A model generated the notes under the pieces. It worked only from the letters and a program-made list of their open reading frames with translations. It was not told where the DNA came from and made no database searches. A program made the position numbers and the translations under genes. From the IMG/VR virus record IMGVR_UViG_3300033978_000724, positions 33,032-97,031 of that record: a stretch of DNA of 64,000 nucleotides, one strand, 5' to 3'. This stretch comes from a virus. Positions 24,403 to 55,061 of the stretch are shown piece after piece (position 1 is the first letter of the stretch; each line of letters begins with the position of its first letter).

Positions 24403-24481
24403 TGTTTCTTGTTATTAAAAACTGTTTTTTATTCTAGCAGATTGAATCGCAATTACGATATTTATGGTAAAATATTTATAT

Positions 24482-24553
24482 AAAAATTCCCCTCGCTGGT
24501 TGGTACTGGAATACCGGGACCACAGGGGATGTAACCTAAATGGAGAGGTCACA
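24482..24553 (+). ncRNA. Structured 5' leader L1, copy A (KilA-N gene)
   Basis: Stem P1 is CCCCT/AGGGG (24489-24493 with 24524-24528). Inside lies a two-part hairpin, TGGT/ACCA outside and GGTA/TACC within, with a GGG bulge (24516-24518). The 3' hairpin pairs ACCT (24534-24537) with AGGT (24546-24549) and contains the Shine-Dalgarno AGAGG; the ATG follows four bases later. A -10-like TAAAAT just upstream means the transcript would start at or near this element. Three more copies are at 33064-33133, 35751-35812 and 45518-45587. Confidence 0.8.
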
Positions 24554-25183
24554 ATGAGTAATTTATCATATCAAGGAAACAGTATAACCCAAAGAGATGG
24601 CGACGGGTATGTCAACGCTACCCAAATGGCAAAAGCTAATGATGCAAGGTTTGACAACTGGATCGCAACCGAAAATGCTAAGGAATACCTGAAAGCCTTG
24701 CAGGAGTCTGATCTCCTGGAAATTCAGGAAAACAATAAAACCCTTATTGTTGTAGAGTCCAAAGGTTTTCCTGCTATTAAAACTATGTGGGTTCATCCTC
24801 TCGTTGCGATAGCCTTCGCTCAGTGGATTAGTCCAAGGTTTCATGTTTGGTGTAACCAGCATATTAAGACGTTACTAGAAACAGGTAAAACCACAACAGG
24901 CAAGTTTAAGCACAATCTTGAATGGTATGACCGCCTACTTTACTACAAAGCTAGGACAAAAATAGAAGTTGGTTATTTCTCAATCTTTGAAGAATTAAAC
25001 AATTCAATCATCAGCGAATTAGAACACTCTGGTTATACCTTGCCACTAGGTTCTGTCCCTGATATTAGCGTTGGACAATGTTTTTGTAATTACCTCAGAA
25101 GTATTGGCTATAACCTAGAGAAAATAACCAAACTTTATACTCATTATTATCCTGATGGACGGGTTATTTGCCAAGTTATCTAG
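24554..25183 (+). CDS. KilA-N domain protein
   Basis: 209 residues from the ATG at 24554, the start set by the leader's AGAGG; an upstream in-frame ATG at 24464 would cover the leader. Residues ~1-105 are a KilA-N domain: GNSITQRDGDGYVNATQMAK, then FPAIKTMWVHPLVAIAFAQW and ISPRFHVWCNQHI. Residues ~120-209 form a separate domain (VGYFSIFEELNNSIISELEH... KLYTHYYPDGR) shared with the protein encoded at 32287-33063. KilA-N proteins are DNA-binding regulators or antirepressors of large DNA phages. Confidence 0.88.
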   Translation: MSNLSYQGNSITQRDGDGYVNATQMAKANDARFDNWIATENAKEYLKALQESDLLEIQENNKTLIVVESKGFPAIKTMWVHPLVAIAFAQWISPRFHVWCNQHIKTLLETGKTTTGKFKHNLEWYDRLLYYKARTKIEVGYFSIFEELNNSIISELEHSGYTLPLGSVPDISVGQCFCNYLRSIGYNLEKITKLYTHYYPDGRVICQVI

Positions 25184-25262: not shown

Positions 25263-25335
25263 TGCGTCTTACTGGAATCGAACCAGCCTTAAGGTGAATT
25301 ATGAGTTCACTGCCTCCCCAATCGGCCAAAAACGC
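25263..25335 (-). tRNA. tRNA with CAU anticodon (Met or lysidine-type Ile)
   Basis: Read on the minus strand it folds as a cloverleaf: acceptor GCGTTTT/AAGACGC with one G-U pair, D arm GCC/GGC with loop GATTGGGGA, anticodon arm GTGAA/TTCAC with loop CTCATAA, T arm GCTGG/CCAGT with loop TTCGATT, and discriminator A. No CCA is encoded. The anticodon CAU fits elongator Met, or Ile if the host modifies C34. Confidence 0.88.
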
Positions 25336-28052: not shown

Positions 28053-28556
28053 TTAAAATACTACTTCGGGGTCTAATAACACCTGTTGGGATAAGTCTCT
28101 GTGATGATAGATGAAGTATTGCACGTCTCTAGGTAATAAGTTGTTTTCTATTGCGTTGGTTGTCCAACCGATATTTTTCCTGAGGATGTCAATCACCCAA
28201 GATAATTGACCGGCTGTCCCCCATATCCCTAACTTTCTACAAACATCTGCTTTCTGTCTAGCAGTGCCGGCCATGAATATTTGATGGGCTAAGTTAGCCG
28301 CCCGGACTCTCTCCGGGGTAACTACGGGATTTTCAGTCTCTAGTTTCTCTATTTCTTTATTAATAGCGTTCAACAAATAACCAAACACATCAGCATAATA
28401 CTTGGCGGTTGTGGCTACCTGAGTGTTTTCTGGATTGGCTTTAGCTACGGGTTCGTTATATCTAGTCATTTCTAACAATAAACTAACAATTCTAGTTTTG
28501 TTGTTATATTTTTTTGCTACTTTTAGCTGGGCCAATAATACTTTTAAGTTTTTCAT
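28053..28556 (-). CDS. Hypothetical helical protein behind leader L2
   Basis: 167 residues from the ATG at 28556, which lies 5 bases after the conserved L2 leader. Mostly helical, with LKVLLAQLKVAKKYNNKTRI and RAANLAHQIFMAGTARQKADV. The last residues, LLDPEVVF, resemble the ending YLDPAVEF of the unrelated protein at 30219-30545, which has the same leader. The promoter upstream has the GATAACCGTG box. Function unknown. Confidence 0.65.
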   Translation of the reverse strand: MKNLKVLLAQLKVAKKYNNKTRIVSLLLEMTRYNEPVAKANPENTQVATTAKYYADVFGYLLNAINKEIEKLETENPVVTPERVRAANLAHQIFMAGTARQKADVCRKLGIWGTAGQLSWVIDILRKNIGWTTNAIENNLLPRDVQYFIYHHRDLSQQVLLDPEVVF

Positions 28557-28561
28557 TTTAT

Positions 28562-28587
28562 TTTCCTCTCCCTTAAGCCGGAGTCGC
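28562..28587 (-). promoter_or_regulatory. Leader L2, copy 1: hairpin holding the ribosome-binding site
   Basis: A 26-base block identical to 30552-30577. Read on the minus strand, ACTCC GGCTTAA GGGAGAGG can fold CTCC with GGAG, which covers the Shine-Dalgarno GGAGAGGA. Identity over 26 bases in two separate leaders implies shared control of translation. Confidence 0.65.
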
Positions 28588-28616
28588 TTTTCATTTGTTT
28601 CTATATTTTTATAATA

Positions 28617-30218: not shown

Positions 30219-30545
30219 TTAAAATTCTACAGCGGGGTCAAGATAAACCCCATTAAAAAACTTATCTTGATTGAAAGGCGTTTCATTTGGGATGTCTCTA
30301 ACCTGTCTAGGCTCTTTTGTATCCTTAGCACCTAAACTAGATGCCATCGAATATTTGCCGTCGGGGTAAACCATCTCATATTCATCTCTGTAACTAGGCT
30401 CAATTCTTCTTGTGATTAATTCATTTGTCGCCAAACATTTAATGGTGACGGTTTTGGCGGTCCGTTTAATAACGGAATAAGCGAATACATGATCACTTAC
30501 TATAGATAAAGAATAATAAACAGTACCAACTTCAAACTTAATCAT
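30219..30545 (-). CDS. Hypothetical protein behind leader L2
   Basis: 108 residues, with a beta-rich N-terminal half (MIKFEVGTVYYSLSIVSDHV, RTAKTVTIKCLATNELITRR) that looks like a small barrel domain and a flexible C-terminal half ending GVYLDPAVEF. It shares leader L2 and a similar C-terminal tail with 28053-28556. It is transcribed from the promoter at 30599-30627. Function unknown. Confidence 0.65.
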   Translation of the reverse strand: MIKFEVGTVYYSLSIVSDHVFAYSVIKRTAKTVTIKCLATNELITRRIEPSYRDEYEMVYPDGKYSMASSLGAKDTKEPRQVRDIPNETPFNQDKFFNGVYLDPAVEF

Positions 30546-30551
30546 TTTATC

Positions 30552-30577
30552 TTTCCTCTCCCTTAAGCCGGAGTCGC
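30552..30577 (-). promoter_or_regulatory. Leader L2, copy 2
   Basis: Identical over 26 bases to 28562-28587, placed 7 bases before the start at 30545. It can pair CTCC with GGAG and so cover the Shine-Dalgarno sequence. Confidence 0.65.
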
Positions 30578-30598
30578 TAAACTTGTTTCAATAAAACC

Positions 30599-32286: not shown

Positions 32287-33063
32287 TTAGTTGAGTAATT
32301 TCAAATCAAATAAATTACCTGATAGTTGCACCTGTAATAGTTCGCTTAATATCCCTATTGCTCTGGGGTCTTTTTTCTTTAGATAGGTATAGAGATGATT
32401 AATCTTATAGGTAAACTCCATCCATTTCCTAAACTCAGCCAACAAACAATCTTGATAAATAAAAGCATCTCGAACCCCTCGCTGGTCGGGATAATGATGT
32501 TTATATTTCATCCTGAGTTTCTCGACGTGAGGGTATTTACTTTCAACATAATCAGACCATCTTTTACCAGCAGAAATATCTATTCCTGAATTATCTGGCA
32601 TGACATAACCTGCTGATTCAAAATCAGAAATCAAAGTATGACTTAATTCTCCAAAGATGGAAAAATAACCGGGCGGGATTTTAGAACGCTCTTTGAACAT
32701 CTGGTATCTATCAAACCATACTATGTTTTTTCGGCCGCCTGAGTTATATTGTCCAGTTTTACGGATAGCGGGTAATACTTCTTCAAATACCCATCGCTGA
32801 AAATCTTTAGCTATTGATTTTCGGCTGGTGAATATCAAAGCATAAAGTCCAGCTTCTGTAACTGTTACCATCTTTTGGTTTCCACCAAGGGTATAGATAC
32901 TAGCTACACCCTTTTGATAGTCGTCTAATCGTTTAATTGCGTCGCTTGCGTTTTGGATACCTAGAATATTACAAACATCTTGAGCCACCCACTCAGGCTT
33001 ATCAGGTGTCCCTACGAATCGCACATCTTGACCATCAAACCGGAATACTGATAAATTACTCAT
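32287..33063 (-). CDS. BRO-N domain antirepressor-like protein with KilA-N-type partner domain
   Basis: 258 residues from the ATG at 33063; the leader's AGAGG and position rule out the GTG at 33075. Residues ~1-110 are a BRO-N domain: SVFRFDGQDVRFVGTPDKPE, WVAQDVCNILGIQNASDAIK, then VTEAGLYALIFTSRKSIAKD and WVFEEVLPAIRKTGQY. Residues ~125-215 match the C-terminal domain of the KilA-N protein at 24554 (PPGYFSIFGELSHTLISDFE, KHHYPDQRG). Domain shuffling between these regulators is evident. It is translated behind leader L1, copy B. Confidence 0.88.
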   Translation of the reverse strand: MSNLSVFRFDGQDVRFVGTPDKPEWVAQDVCNILGIQNASDAIKRLDDYQKGVASIYTLGGNQKMVTVTEAGLYALIFTSRKSIAKDFQRWVFEEVLPAIRKTGQYNSGGRKNIVWFDRYQMFKERSKIPPGYFSIFGELSHTLISDFESAGYVMPDNSGIDISAGKRWSDYVESKYPHVEKLRMKYKHHYPDQRGVRDAFIYQDCLLAEFRKWMEFTYKINHLYTYLKKKDPRAIGILSELLQVQLSGNLFDLKLLN

Positions 33064-33133
33064 GTGACCTCTCACTTAGGTTACTTCCCCTGCGGTCCCG
33101 ATGTTGATAGCATCAACCGGCGAGGGGATTTTT
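33064..33133 (-). ncRNA. Structured 5' leader L1, copy B (BRO gene)
   Basis: Minus strand: P1 CCCCT/AGGGG, outer hairpin CGGT/ACCG, inner hairpin GATG/CATC with the GGG bulge kept, and the Shine-Dalgarno hairpin ACCT/AGGT right before the ATG. Compared with copy A, the changes TGGT/ACCA to CGGT/ACCG and GGTA/TACC to GATG/CATC keep pairing. TATAAT lies about 12 bases upstream. Confidence 0.82.
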
Positions 33134-33472
33134 ACTACTTAATTATATCATAAAATATCGCTCTGGCGGTTTATTTTGTAGGTTCCTATGAATCTATAAA
33201 AGTATTTGTGGACCAATTGGAGACATCTTTTTTTGGTACGGGTTTAGTTTATGGTTTGGCGTGGGTTTGGTTTGGTTGGTGCTGATAGGTTTAATTGGTA
33301 CTTATAATGACAAATCATCCTTCATCAAACCAAAGGGTTGACATTTCAACGAAACACAGTATAATTATCGGTATAATCATTTTTCGTTCACATCTCGAAA
33401 AAAATGATTATATAAAAACAGGAAAGAATTTCCGTCCTTTCCTTTGCATTTAATAAAATTGTTGAGAATATT
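33134..33472. other. 340-base gap: GT-rich stretch, promoter and leader hairpins
   Basis: No gene. It holds a G/T-rich run with repeated GGTTTGG units (about 33239-33283), the plus-strand promoter at 33338-33365, a hairpin ATAATCATTTTTCG/CGAAAAAAATGATTAT (33373-33411) and a second hairpin AGGAAAG/CTTTCCT (33420-33443) upstream of the gene at 33473. Confidence 0.6.
33338..33365 (+). promoter_or_regulatory. Sigma70-type promoter
   Basis: TTGACA (33338-33343), a 16-base spacer and TATAAT (33360-33365). A transcript would begin near 33372, right at the first hairpin of the leader. Confidence 0.8.
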
Positions 33473-35282: not shown

Positions 35283-35750
35283 TTATTTAGACCAATCGGA
35301 ATAACTATCTATTCCCCTAAATCTCTCATCACCATCCATCAATAAGTTTAATTCCGCATAGTTTTCTAGTATCTCATTCATCCTTTCAAACGGGTTTAAA
35401 CCTTTCTTTATTTCACCGTCATTCAATAGGACAAATATATTAACATTGCACCAACGATGGAAAGCTGGACTAATCCATTGAGCTAACAAAATAGCAATCT
35501 CAGGATGTCCCCAGCTTCCCTGTAATTCTGGACGACCACCTTTTGTTATTTCGACTAATCCCGTTGCGGGAATTCCCGTATCGGCTGTCATCTCTCGGAT
35601 GTAGGCTTTAGTTTGTTTTAATCGGAGAAAATCATTTAACTTTTTACCCGTGGCATTACACATATTAGTCAGGTTAACGAATCCATCGTTACGCCGTCCC
35701 TGAATCATCTTGCCATTGTACGAAGCGGACACAATACTGCTATTATTCAT
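35283..35750 (-). CDS. Short KilA-N domain protein
   Basis: 155 residues. YNGKMIQGRRNDGFVNLTNM, then the long helix KLNDFLRLKQTKAYIREMTA, GGRPELQGSWGHPEIAILLA and QWISPAFHRWCNVNIF form a full KilA-N domain (residues ~10-110). The C-terminal ~40 residues are acidic and lack the partner domain found in the other two regulators. It is translated behind leader L1, copy C. Confidence 0.88.
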   Translation of the reverse strand: MNNSSIVSASYNGKMIQGRRNDGFVNLTNMCNATGKKLNDFLRLKQTKAYIREMTADTGIPATGLVEITKGGRPELQGSWGHPEIAILLAQWISPAFHRWCNVNIFVLLNDGEIKKGLNPFERMNEILENYAELNLLMDGDERFRGIDSYSDWSK

Positions 35751-35812
35751 TTAGTTGACCTCTAACTAGGTTTACTCATCCCCTGGACATTTCGAGTGTC
35801 GCAGGGATTTTT
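35751..35812 (-). ncRNA. Structured 5' leader L1, copy C (short variant)
   Basis: Minus strand: P1 CCCTG/CAGGG, one inner hairpin GACA/TGTC with loop CTCGAAA, no outer hairpin, then the Shine-Dalgarno hairpin ACCT/AGGT. The same AGTAGTAAAAATCCC start as copy B follows a TATGAT -10. Confidence 0.75.
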
Positions 35813-44872: not shown

Positions 44873-45517
44873 TTAAATTAAGAACCTCAAAGCCTCTTTA
44901 TGGGTATGACCAGCTTTTCTCATGGCGTTGTATATCGCTTCGGATCGATTCATTTTGCTTATTTCATCCGCTGAATATTCATTAATGCTGATGATTGGTA
45001 ATCCACTTGACTCTTTGAACTCATTAATTTTTCTGCCATATTCCCAATCCTTAGAACAACCATCTTGCTGTAACCAGAAAGTTAATAATGGGTGAAAACG
45101 CTCTCTATGTATTTGACGTTCTCTTAAAAAGTTTTGCCGGTCTTCTTCCGTGAATTTAACGTGAAAAGCGTCACAAAATAATTGATGCCATCCTAAATCA
45201 TTTAAGTCACGAACTAAGTCCATTGCTTTTTGGTTGCCAGAAAAAGCTAACTCAACTATCAATCGGGACCAACTTTCTAACGGAATAATATTGACAGCTT
45301 TTTGATTAAAAGGGGTTTTCCATTGTTCAAACTCAATGGATGTCTGAGAAACCTTTGCTAGTAGTCGCTTGAGGTCTCTTGACGCTGTATTCCTGGATGT
45401 CTCGAAAATATCTGCGTACTGGGGAACTGCCACACCAAAACGACAACCTTCGGCCATCAATCCTTCTATCGTGTGCGTCCCGACTTTAACCGTAGCAATT
45501 TGTGCTTTAATACTCAT
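44873..45517 (-). CDS. DNA-binding antirepressor-like protein behind leader L1
   Basis: 214 residues. VGTHTIEGLMAEGCRFGVAV then PQYADIFETSRNTASRDLKR contains a probable helix-turn-helix; a central NIIPLESWSRLIVELAFSGN segment resembles the middle of cyanobacterial phage-regulator proteins; the C-terminal helix MNRSEAIYNAMRKAGHTHKE ends the protein. It lacks KilA-N or BRO-N motifs, yet shares leader L1 with three such genes, which links it to the same circuit. Confidence 0.6.
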   Translation of the reverse strand: MSIKAQIATVKVGTHTIEGLMAEGCRFGVAVPQYADIFETSRNTASRDLKRLLAKVSQTSIEFEQWKTPFNQKAVNIIPLESWSRLIVELAFSGNQKAMDLVRDLNDLGWHQLFCDAFHVKFTEEDRQNFLRERQIHRERFHPLLTFWLQQDGCSKDWEYGRKINEFKESSGLPIISINEYSADEISKMNRSEAIYNAMRKAGHTHKEALRFLI

Positions 45518-45587
45518 GTGTCCTCTTACTTAGGATACTCCCCTTAAGGCCCCGGTATTTCCAGTACCAACCTGTGAAGGGGTTTTT
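45518..45587 (-). ncRNA. Structured 5' leader L1, copy D
   Basis: Minus strand: P1 CCCCTT/AAGGGG, outer hairpin AGGT/GCCT, inner GGTA/TACC, and the Shine-Dalgarno hairpin TCCT/AGGA where the other copies have ACCT/AGGT, a compensatory swap. The loop CTGGAAA is nearly that of copy A. TATAAT lies about 11 bases upstream, so the RNA probably starts with this element. Confidence 0.82.
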
Positions 45588-45605
45588 GCATGAATAATTA
45601 TAACA

Positions 45606-52021: not shown

Positions 52022-52061
52022 AACAAAACCCCTGACGATTTAACTCAGGGGTTTTGTTTTA
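52021..52061. terminator. Strong bidirectional terminator
   Basis: AAAACAAAACCCCTGA and TCAGGGGTTTTGTTTT are a perfect 16-bp inverted repeat between convergent genes. Confidence 0.92.
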
Positions 52062-55061
52062 TTTACTACTACCAATTAAACACTTATCACTATCGCAACC
52101 AGCGGGACCCGCCTCAAACATTTCCCCAAAGTCATACTTTCTGAGTGCCTCATGAAAATCATCATTTTTACGACGTTCTAACATCTCCCGTACCAACCGA
52201 TCATGTGTTTCCTTATCTATCGGCTCAAACGGCAATCTAGGGAACGTCTGAAGGTCGTCAAACCGAGCTAATAAAGCTGATGAAATATAACCCTCATCCT
52301 CATCAATTGCCTTGAATATTCTCTCCCCTAATAACTCAATTTCATTCTCTCTAAATTCCAATGTTGCGGAAGTGTTATGAGTTACATAATGTTGTTGTAC
52401 TTGCATATAGAAGTCAAATTGAGCTAAGGCAGTGAAGTTATGAATATCAATTTGATCTGCACCCGGTAAATTAGCCCAACACACCTCAACTGGTATCTCC
52501 ACTAACCACTCAGTACATCTCGGATCATACGGATCATTGAGTAAATGACCATTCTCATCTTTATCTGATTGCGATGGAATAACATTATATCCATAATCAA
52601 TACAGGCTAAAGCAACCGGGTCATCACGTCTAAATGTAATTCTTCTGATGAACCTCTGAGATTTAGGGGGATGCCAACCGGGTGAAGCACCTGTTAGTAA
52701 AGACTTGGATCCGCTAGGCTGGACTGTTGTACACCGATTAGGGCGACGTAATTTATGCCGATCACAATACTCCCAAATAGTCTCATGCACAATATTCTTC
52801 CAATGGTCTAAAAACTCCTGTTCTTTTTCCTTGAAATAAACAGCGGCATTCCTTACCGACAACCCGCCTAATACACGGACTTCTATTCTGTAATAATCAG
52901 GTCGTCCAGCTTCCCACCATTTAAGCCAATCCACACCAAAAGCATTAACAAAGAAATCAAATAACCCGGTAAAACTCACCCCGACAATCGGATCAATTTC
53001 CCTGCTATATTGGTATCTCTCCACAGTAAACTCATGATTTAAAAGTGTGGCAACAGAAATAGCGGCAGCTTTAAATGCTTTTTCCTGTGCCTCAATATCT
53101 TCGGGGTCTATCTGGTTTAAATGTACTTCTGCTAAGTTACAGAAGTTATTACTCATGATGATTTCACCGCAATTATGGGCGATGAACCCGTTACAATCAA
53201 AGTAGTTTAGCCCTGGTATGGAGCAATCATAGACAGGTTTTTCTCCAGTAGGAATAATCTCTTTTACCGTAGCTTTCATGATGTCATCAGAAAAAGGTAT
53301 TTTGTTCTCATCCTCTGGTTGGAAATACCAGGTCATCAACTCTCTTAATGTATCCCGATCCTCTGAAACAATAGCTAATCGCAACATATCAGGAATACCA
53401 CTAGGACCAATGAAAGAATATACTCCCAACCAAATCAGATGACGTTGTGCTTTCTCTAAAAACTCCCTATTAGGATGATCGACAACTATCTTTTTGTCCT
53501 CAAGGTTTAACTCTGAATTATTGGTGAAAACATTTTCCATCAACCACTCTAAGGATTCATTATCTACATATCCTTTATGATTATTCAATAATAATTCATC
53601 GCCTAATAACAGCATCCCCGCCTTTACCCATTCGCCATCAGGAGTTTGTAATTTGTGGTCATCTGTTAGCTCAATACTAAAACCTTCTTCTGTGGTTATT
53701 TTAAAAGTCTTTTTAACTCCTGATAACCAGAACCCTTCTTCATTTGATAAGTGTTCTTTACCGTTGACTATTGCGGTAAATTGGTCGTCTATCAACTCTT
53801 TAACTTGTTTAGGTCCTTCTGAAGTTAACACCCAATTATCGGCGGTCAAGCATGGGTTTAATCCATAGCGTGCCAATCGGTGTTCTATTTCCTTGTCCGA
53901 TATATCTCCTAATGTTTCTTTGATTAATTCTTTGAGTGTGCCGTTTTGGTGTGCCTCTAATACTAATTTTTTCCCATTAGTACCTAGTTTATCAATGACA
54001 TCAATATTAGCTCTAGCAATAGATTCACCCACCCACTGAATAGCACCCTCGCCGGAATAGTATTGTTTTCTTACCGCATCAATACATTCTTGTTTGGTCG
54101 GTTTTTGGTGGAATACTCTGGTATGGTTACTCATCCGTAAAGCGTCACGTTCTGGATCAATAAACCATTTGCCATTTGGGGTTTGTTGCCATAAATTATC
54201 CTTGGCTGTTTCAAATGTTTTGTCGTATTGACATCCCTGTTTCATGCCGGCACTTCGCCTCACGTTCCCTGCCACGATCGCTTTAGCAGAAATATCAATT
54301 AATAAACAACACTCAACAGAGTTTAATTGGCGACCAACTGCTTTATTTAAAACACTGGCACAATTGATAAAGGTATCAGCAAGTAAAATAGGATTAGAAA
54401 TTCCCCCAAACCCATTTAATCTTTCACCCGCCGGTCTAACATTGCTTAAATCAATATTCACATTAATTAGGTGACCAAACGCCCCATAAGTATCATCAGA
54501 TGACAACTCTAATAGCATCCGGTAAGCATCAACCCAGCCTTTTCTACTATCACCACAGATAATAGTTATCTCATTTTGACCAGCAACTAAGGACGAGTTT
54601 TCTTGTCTTAATTCCTTTTGCTGGGTCCCTATTGCTTTAGATATTCTGAGATTAATTGAGTTAATAATCTTTGGTAATTGATTAATATATTTAGGCTCTA
54701 CTACCGCCCCAGCACCACAACCCATCATGGTTACATCCATCACTAAAGCGAACGCTTCCCATGAATCAATAATAGTGGAGGAGCAGTTGTAAACCCCTGG
54801 GAAATTATCTGGCTTTTCTGCCCAATCCGTGCCACCTACCCAAAGATAGCGACCTGACGTAAGTGCTTTTAATTCTTTTTGTTGGTTATAAATTAACTCA
54901 GCTTCGGCTAAGGATAATTGTCCTAATTTAGCCAGTCCTTGTGTTGTTCTCTGGCATACATCTAGCCAGTTTTCTCTACTGTCATTGTTTCTTCTGGAGT
55001 ATGTTCTGTAAAAAACAGGATAGGCTGTTAGATGTTCTTCAAACGTAGAAATTATTGTCAT
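52059..55061 (-). CDS. nrdJ: B12-dependent (class II) ribonucleotide reductase, interrupted by an intein
   Basis: The 1000-residue precursor gives a 773-residue enzyme after removal of a 227-residue intein (residues 404-630). It reduces ribonucleotides (probably triphosphates, as in the Lactobacillus leichmannii type) using adenosylcobalamin. Landmarks: LTSGRYLWVGG and GVYNCSSTIIDSWEAF (first redox Cys), TMMGCGAGAVVEP, GNVRRSAGM, the active-site NP-C-GEI split by the intein, and VQPSGSKSLLTGASPGWHPP, typical of this class. The C-terminus PAGCDSDKCLIGSSK provides the exchanging Cys pair. It starts four bases after the Dam-type gene's stop, whose TGA lies in the GAGG ribosome-binding site. Confidence 0.95.
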   Translation of the reverse strand: MTIISTFEEHLTAYPVFYRTYSRRNNDSRENWLDVCQRTTQGLAKLGQLSLAEAELIYNQQKELKALTSGRYLWVGGTDWAEKPDNFPGVYNCSSTIIDSWEAFALVMDVTMMGCGAGAVVEPKYINQLPKIINSINLRISKAIGTQQKELRQENSSLVAGQNEITIICGDSRKGWVDAYRMLLELSSDDTYGAFGHLINVNIDLSNVRPAGERLNGFGGISNPILLADTFINCASVLNKAVGRQLNSVECCLLIDISAKAIVAGNVRRSAGMKQGCQYDKTFETAKDNLWQQTPNGKWFIDPERDALRMSNHTRVFHQKPTKQECIDAVRKQYYSGEGAIQWVGESIARANIDVIDKLGTNGKKLVLEAHQNGTLKELIKETLGDISDKEIEHRLARYGLNPCLTADNWVLTSEGPKQVKELIDDQFTAIVNGKEHLSNEEGFWLSGVKKTFKITTEEGFSIELTDDHKLQTPDGEWVKAGMLLLGDELLLNNHKGYVDNESLEWLMENVFTNNSELNLEDKKIVVDHPNREFLEKAQRHLIWLGVYSFIGPSGIPDMLRLAIVSEDRDTLRELMTWYFQPEDENKIPFSDDIMKATVKEIIPTGEKPVYDCSIPGLNYFDCNGFIAHNCGEIIMSNNFCNLAEVHLNQIDPEDIEAQEKAFKAAAISVATLLNHEFTVERYQYSREIDPIVGVSFTGLFDFFVNAFGVDWLKWWEAGRPDYYRIEVRVLGGLSVRNAAVYFKEKEQEFLDHWKNIVHETIWEYCDRHKLRRPNRCTTVQPSGSKSLLTGASPGWHPPKSQRFIRRITFRRDDPVALACIDYGYNVIPSQSDKDENGHLLNDPYDPRCTEWLVEIPVEVCWANLPGADQIDIHNFTALAQFDFYMQVQQHYVTHNTSATLEFRENEIELLGERIFKAIDEDEGYISSALLARFDDLQTFPRLPFEPIDKETHDRLVREMLERRKNDDFHEALRKYDFGEMFEAGPAGCDSDKCLIGSSK
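53172..53852 (-). mobile_element. Intein of 227 residues at the NrdJ active-site cysteine
   Basis: Begins at Cys404 (CLTADNWVLTSEGPKQVKEL, block A) and ends at Asn630 (NYFDCNGFIAHN, block G), directly before the catalytic C of CGEI. Block B is FSIELTDDHKLQTPDG with the T-x-x-H motif and block F is PVYDCSIPG. All residues needed for splicing are present. No clear LAGLIDADG pair remains in the middle (LEKAQRHLIWLGVYSF may be a remnant), so it is a mini-intein or has a degenerate endonuclease. Confidence 0.92.

Follow-up and report, generated by a model that had tools for sequence, protein, structure and literature searches.

Structured elements at the start of a gene are known from several systems. 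The riboswitches and cis-regulatory leaders of Rfam are compact folds between a promoter and a start codon, with fixed unpaired letters and covarying helices, and the genes behind them are metabolic. In phages, the T4-type homing-endonuclease genes I-TevI, mobE and segB have hairpins that mask the ribosome-binding site (RBS) and are thought to time translation (PMC2988022). The aba element is a stretch of about 60 nt that overlaps the start of bstA, has terminal CCCGCC direct repeats and was shown to act as DNA (PMC8585504). IS200/IS605 elements have bulged subterminal hairpins upstream of TnpB-like genes.

We analysed a stretch of 64,000 nt (the window) from a viral record of 97,031 bases and found the same small folded RNA before four genes of what is probably a cyanobacterial virus; the host is inferred to be cyanobacteria from the relatives of the genes and the leaders. 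The first-pass annotation had located four leaders, each just after a -10-like box and before an ATG, and its positions and strands agree with ours. We call them A, B, C and D. Leader A extends from P1 to a CAC at 24488-24552 on the plus strand, with the ATG 1 nt later. The architecture is a stem P1 (24488-24493 pairing with 24524-24529), a G-C or A-U pair (G24495-C24523 in A) between two bulged C's (24494 and 24496), P2 (24497-24500 with 24519-24522), P3 with a 3' bulge (24501-24505 with 24512-24516), and then the last hairpin, P4 (24534-24537 with 24546-24549), which is framed by a GUA at its foot (24531-24533) and the CAC (24550-24552). The predicted -10-like box of leader A, a TAAAAT 15 nt 5' of CCCCT, and the presumed transcription start region take up 24464-24487 (+). 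Gene A (24554-25183, +) encodes a KilA-N domain together with a C-terminal part that resembles the BstA of phages (phrog_6287), and a tRNA-Met (CAT) gene is found just downstream of it (25263-25335, -).

Leaders B (33064-33128, -) and D (45518-45582, -), again counted from P1 to CAC, fold as A does and are followed directly (0 nt) by the ATG; a TATAAT box with its spacer is predicted at 33129-33147 (-) for B and at 45583-45601 (-) for D. Gene B (32287-33063, -) has a Bro-N domain and, like gene A, a C-terminal part that resembles BstA, the phrog_6287 match covering part of the length of both genes. Leader C (35751-35812, -) is a shortened subtype that lacks P2, with P1 CCCTG/CAGGG, the hairpin GACA/TGTC and P4 ACCT/AGGT, and gene C behind it (35283-35750, -) encodes a short KilA-N protein. 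The KilA-N or Bro-N domains reported earlier in three of the four genes are confirmed. We could not uphold the description of the fourth as another DNA-binding protein, as gene D (44873-45517, -; 214 aa) belongs to no family that we recognised, has no Pfam or PHROG match, and the only relative that we found is a hypothetical protein on a Crinalium epipsammum plasmid, 35% identical.

The helices described in the first-pass annotation are all visible in the sequence. P1 is CCCCT/AGGGG outside C; the inner hairpin is GGTA/TACC, GATG/CATC, GACA/TGTC and GGTA/TACC in A to D; the outer hairpin is TGGT/ACCA in A, CGGT/ACCG in B, absent in C and AGGT/GCCT in D; and the last hairpin is ACCT/AGGT or TCCT/AGGA. 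Looking at the fold by hand, we find that P1 has 6 bp with a foot pair that covaries (U-A in A and B, C-G in D), and that the first G of what had been called a GGG bulge can pair with a U, which makes P3 5 bp long and the bulge 2 nt.

A covariance model of copies A, B and D (R1), with the fold read by hand, scores its own three copies at 90-103 bits. Leader C, which is outside the model, scored 23.5 bits (E 8e-4), and there was no other strong R1 site in the whole 97,031-base record, where the next best had 8.2 bits. C and B are also alike in sequence, with a local alignment score of 63 when the best of 500 shuffles reached 35. A later and wider model, R2, did not recover C, and we consider its membership weaker because it has no P2 and was missed by R2. 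The earlier observation of one fold in four copies is confirmed, with C as a less well supported subtype.

Folded as single sequences, the four leaders have modest z-scores against shuffles (-2.1, -2.3, -2.9 and -1.0), so the evidence for the leader rests on covariation. In our alignment A8, which has 15 distinct leaders, 99.4% of 309 pair cells are paired, and 14 of the 21 pairs have two-sided changes. The covariation score was 0.628 compared with 0.216 +/- 0.023 in shuffles, and 0/500 shuffles reached the observed value. Control structures with slid partners were only 38-52% paired, and RNAalifold gave essentially the same fold unaided. With the plasmid members described below, 17 of 21 pairs covary and 98% of helix cells are paired (13 leaders, hand decomposition), and swapping 3' arms between leaders gave a maximum of 81% paired in 5000 trials; for these plasmid members we made the alignment manually, and R2 alignments lean towards the model. 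Since many leaders are close relatives, the covariation signal comes from about six independent sequence classes. The helices are rewritten throughout, including P4, which can be ACCU/AGGU, UCCU/AGGA, GGU/ACC or CGUUA/UAACG. The first bulged C and the GUA are invariant, plasmid members included, and the second bulged C and the CAC have one deviating member each. Together with the shuffle control, these changes support the earlier view that the leader is a structured cis-acting RNA and that selection acts on its pairing. We also considered that the P3 loop, which reads YUNNNAR in many phage members, might mimic an anticodon loop, and dropped the idea because plasmid members have CGCCAA, CGCUAA and UUUGCAC there.

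The search of cyanophage and metagenome sequence that had been proposed as a check found further copies of the fold, both in Aphanizomenon phage CL131 and in numerous IMG/VR phage contigs. The CL131 match to R1 (MG209611, 64480-64552, -) had an E value of 8e-9 against the fetched locus and of 9e-8 against the entire record, and it is upstream of gp061, an OrfB_IS605/Cas12f1-like protein whose gene is, according to the CL131 authors, a type V-U2 CRISPR effector gene beside a CRISPR array (PMC6293099). Leaders of the CL131 type stand before homologous TnpB-like genes in contigs L025-L031, L033, L035 and L036; the TnpB genes of L032 and L034 have no leader, though they are 77-79% identical to leader-bearing ones. 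We found no tie between the CL131 leader and the adjacent CRISPR repeat, as they share no 8-mer. The BRO gene of CL131 (gp062) has another hairpin in its leader (L020, 4919-5003), which we do not count as a family member because neither R1 nor R2 matches it. At -22.5 kcal/mol, with 1 of 200 shuffles as stable, it is possibly a different leader type.

A scan with a DNA pattern added more phage contigs with the leader before KilA-N genes, as well as one MUG113 gene (L086); the KilA-N gene behind the leader in L079 has a T5orf172-like C-terminus, as read from its sequence. When we scanned once more, now for the TnpB-type leader, only contigs that we already knew as carriers came up, and two contig scans gave no confirmed relative. 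We discarded the pattern match in L010 as probably due to chance, because the number of matches was about that expected by chance and the upper fold was not seen.

On plasmids, R2 found the leader in Gloeothece citriformis PCC 7424 (KilA-N), Calothrix PCC 6303 (KilA-N + ParB) and Calothrix NIES-4101 (KilA-N + Dam), with E values of the three matches between 3e-8 and 4e-7. Overall there were 29 R2 matches of 63-84 bits in 810 kb, and these are at KilA-N, Bro-N, D, TnpB or MUG113 genes, bar one orphan copy; the remaining matches had at most 28 bits and were mostly the reverse strand of true sites. In the orphan (L041 1501-1575, or G016:28639-28713, -) P4 is damaged and no KilA-N gene follows, apparently because of a deletion or insertion at the 3' end of the leader. 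A C-type leader before a BRO gene on an Oscillatoria acuminata plasmid was seen by inspection and pairwise alignment only. There was no leader match in Microcystis phage Mic1 or in the searched part of Pseudanabaena phage PA-SR01, and no such leader before a 57% identical KilA-N gene in L008/L009 or before eight other KilA-N genes on cyanobacterial plasmids. The genes served had been described as a regulator set, and we do not find support for this, since TnpB-like/type V-U2 effector genes and a MUG113 gene carry the same fold.

Two arrangements among the carriers are worth recording. In L012/L075-L089, L125 and L128 the KilA-N part and the leader in front of it are kept, and the C-terminal domain varies by swapping (T5orf172-like, ParB, Dam or BstA-like). 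In each of the contigs G012, G016, G017, G019 and G024 a KilA-N leader is about 3.1 kb from a TnpB leader, the two facing in opposite, outward directions; they have the same fold and different helix sequences.

The likeness of proteins A and B to BstA raises the question of whether the leader could be a DNA element like aba. The KilA-N/BRO protein would then bind it as double- or single-stranded DNA, to provide self-immunity or to repress its own gene. Both are about 60 nt long and sit at the start of a gene, and aba is known to work as DNA. However, inspection of all four window leaders showed no terminal CCCGCC repeats, the half-sites covary instead of being fixed, and many other carriers of the leader, the TnpB and MUG113 genes among them, have no likeness to BstA. 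These three points make a role as DNA only unlikely, the covariation would favour action as RNA, and we consider an aba-like element very improbable.

We give even less credence to a DNA end or mobility signal, for example the subterminal hairpin of an IS200/IS605 element. It would fit with the bulged hairpin, with the many TnpB-like genes among the carriers and with the way that genes change behind a constant leader, as if a cassette had moved, but most carriers are KilA-N genes (the leader is found mainly before these and BRO genes), the close TnpB relatives in L032 and L034 do without the leader, and a second hairpin that abuts the AUG has no role in a DNA end.

The position of the leader also speaks for a role in the message. 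In 12 of 15 leaders a high-scoring -10 box precedes P1 by 4-21 nt, compared with 4.9% of random window positions, and CAC is 0-3 nt before the AUG in 8 of 13 leaders. CAC usually abuts the AUG in the KilA-N, BRO and D members; the AUG is beyond it by 13-14 nt in TnpB members and by 8 nt in Gloeothece. The leaders are thus between the promoter and the start codon of the gene they serve, with both -10 boxes and start codons assigned by sequence. With the box before it and the AUG after it, the leader would open the predicted message at its 5' end and, in most members, extend over the translation start region. Such a placement, with the structure beginning soon after the -10 box, could also mean a stem of the ompA type that protects the mRNA from decay and switches nothing. 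We believe this to be unlikely, because any stable stem would serve for that, and the fixed bulged C's, the GUA/CAC and the tight fit of P4 to the AUG would be left unexplained.

The Shine-Dalgarno (SD) sequence had been placed in the last hairpin. This is correct for A-D, where P4 carries it (partly in the stem), but the hairpin is weak, with P4 alone at -2.4 to -4.6 kcal/mol, and there is no clear SD in the P4 stem of the two Calothrix copies or in P4 of the TnpB members. Static masking of the RBS, as reviewed for the T4 homing-endonuclease genes, would keep read-through transcripts masked and leave transcripts from an internal promoter free. The T4 hairpins likewise cover the RBS of phage-carried mobile-element genes, and the SD in A-D would be in keeping with such a hairpin. 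In our case, however, the promoter is upstream of the whole fold, so that every transcript would carry it; P4 is weak and masks no clear SD in the Calothrix and TnpB members, and there would be no need for the far stronger P1-P3 part. The fold also has two domains and is kept between non-homologous genes. Given the weak P4 and the Calothrix copies, plain burial of the SD is probably not the common principle, and we rate static masking as quite unlikely. We also dropped the idea of a bistable switch in which P1 competes with the SD, as inspection by eye showed no convincing alternative pairing.

The window gave no match to the 4227 families of Rfam 15 at gathering thresholds, and leader A and the CL131, Gloeothece and Calothrix leaders gave none or only chance-level matches at relaxed thresholds, in line with the earlier remark that this is no known class. 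A likeness to glutamine riboswitches (GGAAGUA) came to nothing, as no Rfam family matched. We found no description of the leader in the literature that we searched, the coverage of which excludes most subscription papers. Judged from sequence, the leader is a new cis-regulatory RNA family: the same fold before unrelated virus and plasmid genes indicates a real, previously uncatalogued RNA control element.

Whether such an element senses a small molecule is a separate matter. In a riboswitch, P1-P3 with the bulged C's would be the aptamer for a metabolite or infection signal and P4 the expression platform. The leader looks like one in that it is a compact fold, placed between promoter and start codon, whose helices covary freely around fixed unpaired letters, and in that non-homologous genes share it. 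On the other side, the four members tested match no Rfam class, the genes belong to mobile elements and suggest no metabolite, the fixed unpaired letters are few for an aptamer, and the P3 loop is variable. We regard a riboswitch as possible but doubtful.

The reading that we prefer, and think probable, is that the leader acts as a translational operator from the 5' end of the message and depends on a trans factor or a ligand. P4 would sit on the ribosome landing site in most members and be too weak alone to shut it. The fixed letters look like a recognition site for something that stabilises P4. This would most likely be a protein acting in trans, possibly one made by the host, or else a small ligand; it would recognise the bulged C's and the GUA/CAC foot and lock P4, and would so determine the timing of translation of the KilA-N, BRO or TnpB-like protein. 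As unrelated elements carry the leader before genes that are not homologous, a factor from the host or a ligand common to all seems likelier than autoregulation by each protein. Translational switching by the leader is in this sense plausible. More tentatively, and we would not count on it, the leader could be a new class of signal-sensing RNA in cyanobacterial phages and plasmids, responding to a small molecule or an infection-state protein and timing the translation of takeover or defence genes. If so, a type V-U2 CRISPR effector carried by a phage would be among the proteins timed in this way, as would KilA-N proteins with swapped C-terminal domains (BstA-like, ParB, Dam, T5orf172-like).

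KilA-N and BRO genes are widespread in DNA viruses and poorly understood. A conserved RNA before these genes, and before TnpB-like and MUG113 genes, gives a handle on when they switch on, and the covariance model is a means to find more such leaders. The leader also connects KilA-N/BRO genes with the CRISPR-type effector of CL131, an isolated phage that is amenable to tests of function.

The window has two further features of note. In the B12-dependent ribonucleotide reductase gene (52059-55061, -), residues 412-630 are an intein (PF14890). Another leader that is repeated, AGCGACTCCGGCTTAAGGGAGAGGAAA(G)ATAAAATGA, occurs at about 28553-28589 (-) and 30543-30578 (-); the two copies are near-identical, have two different genes behind them, and form a CTCC/GGAG hairpin over the SD.
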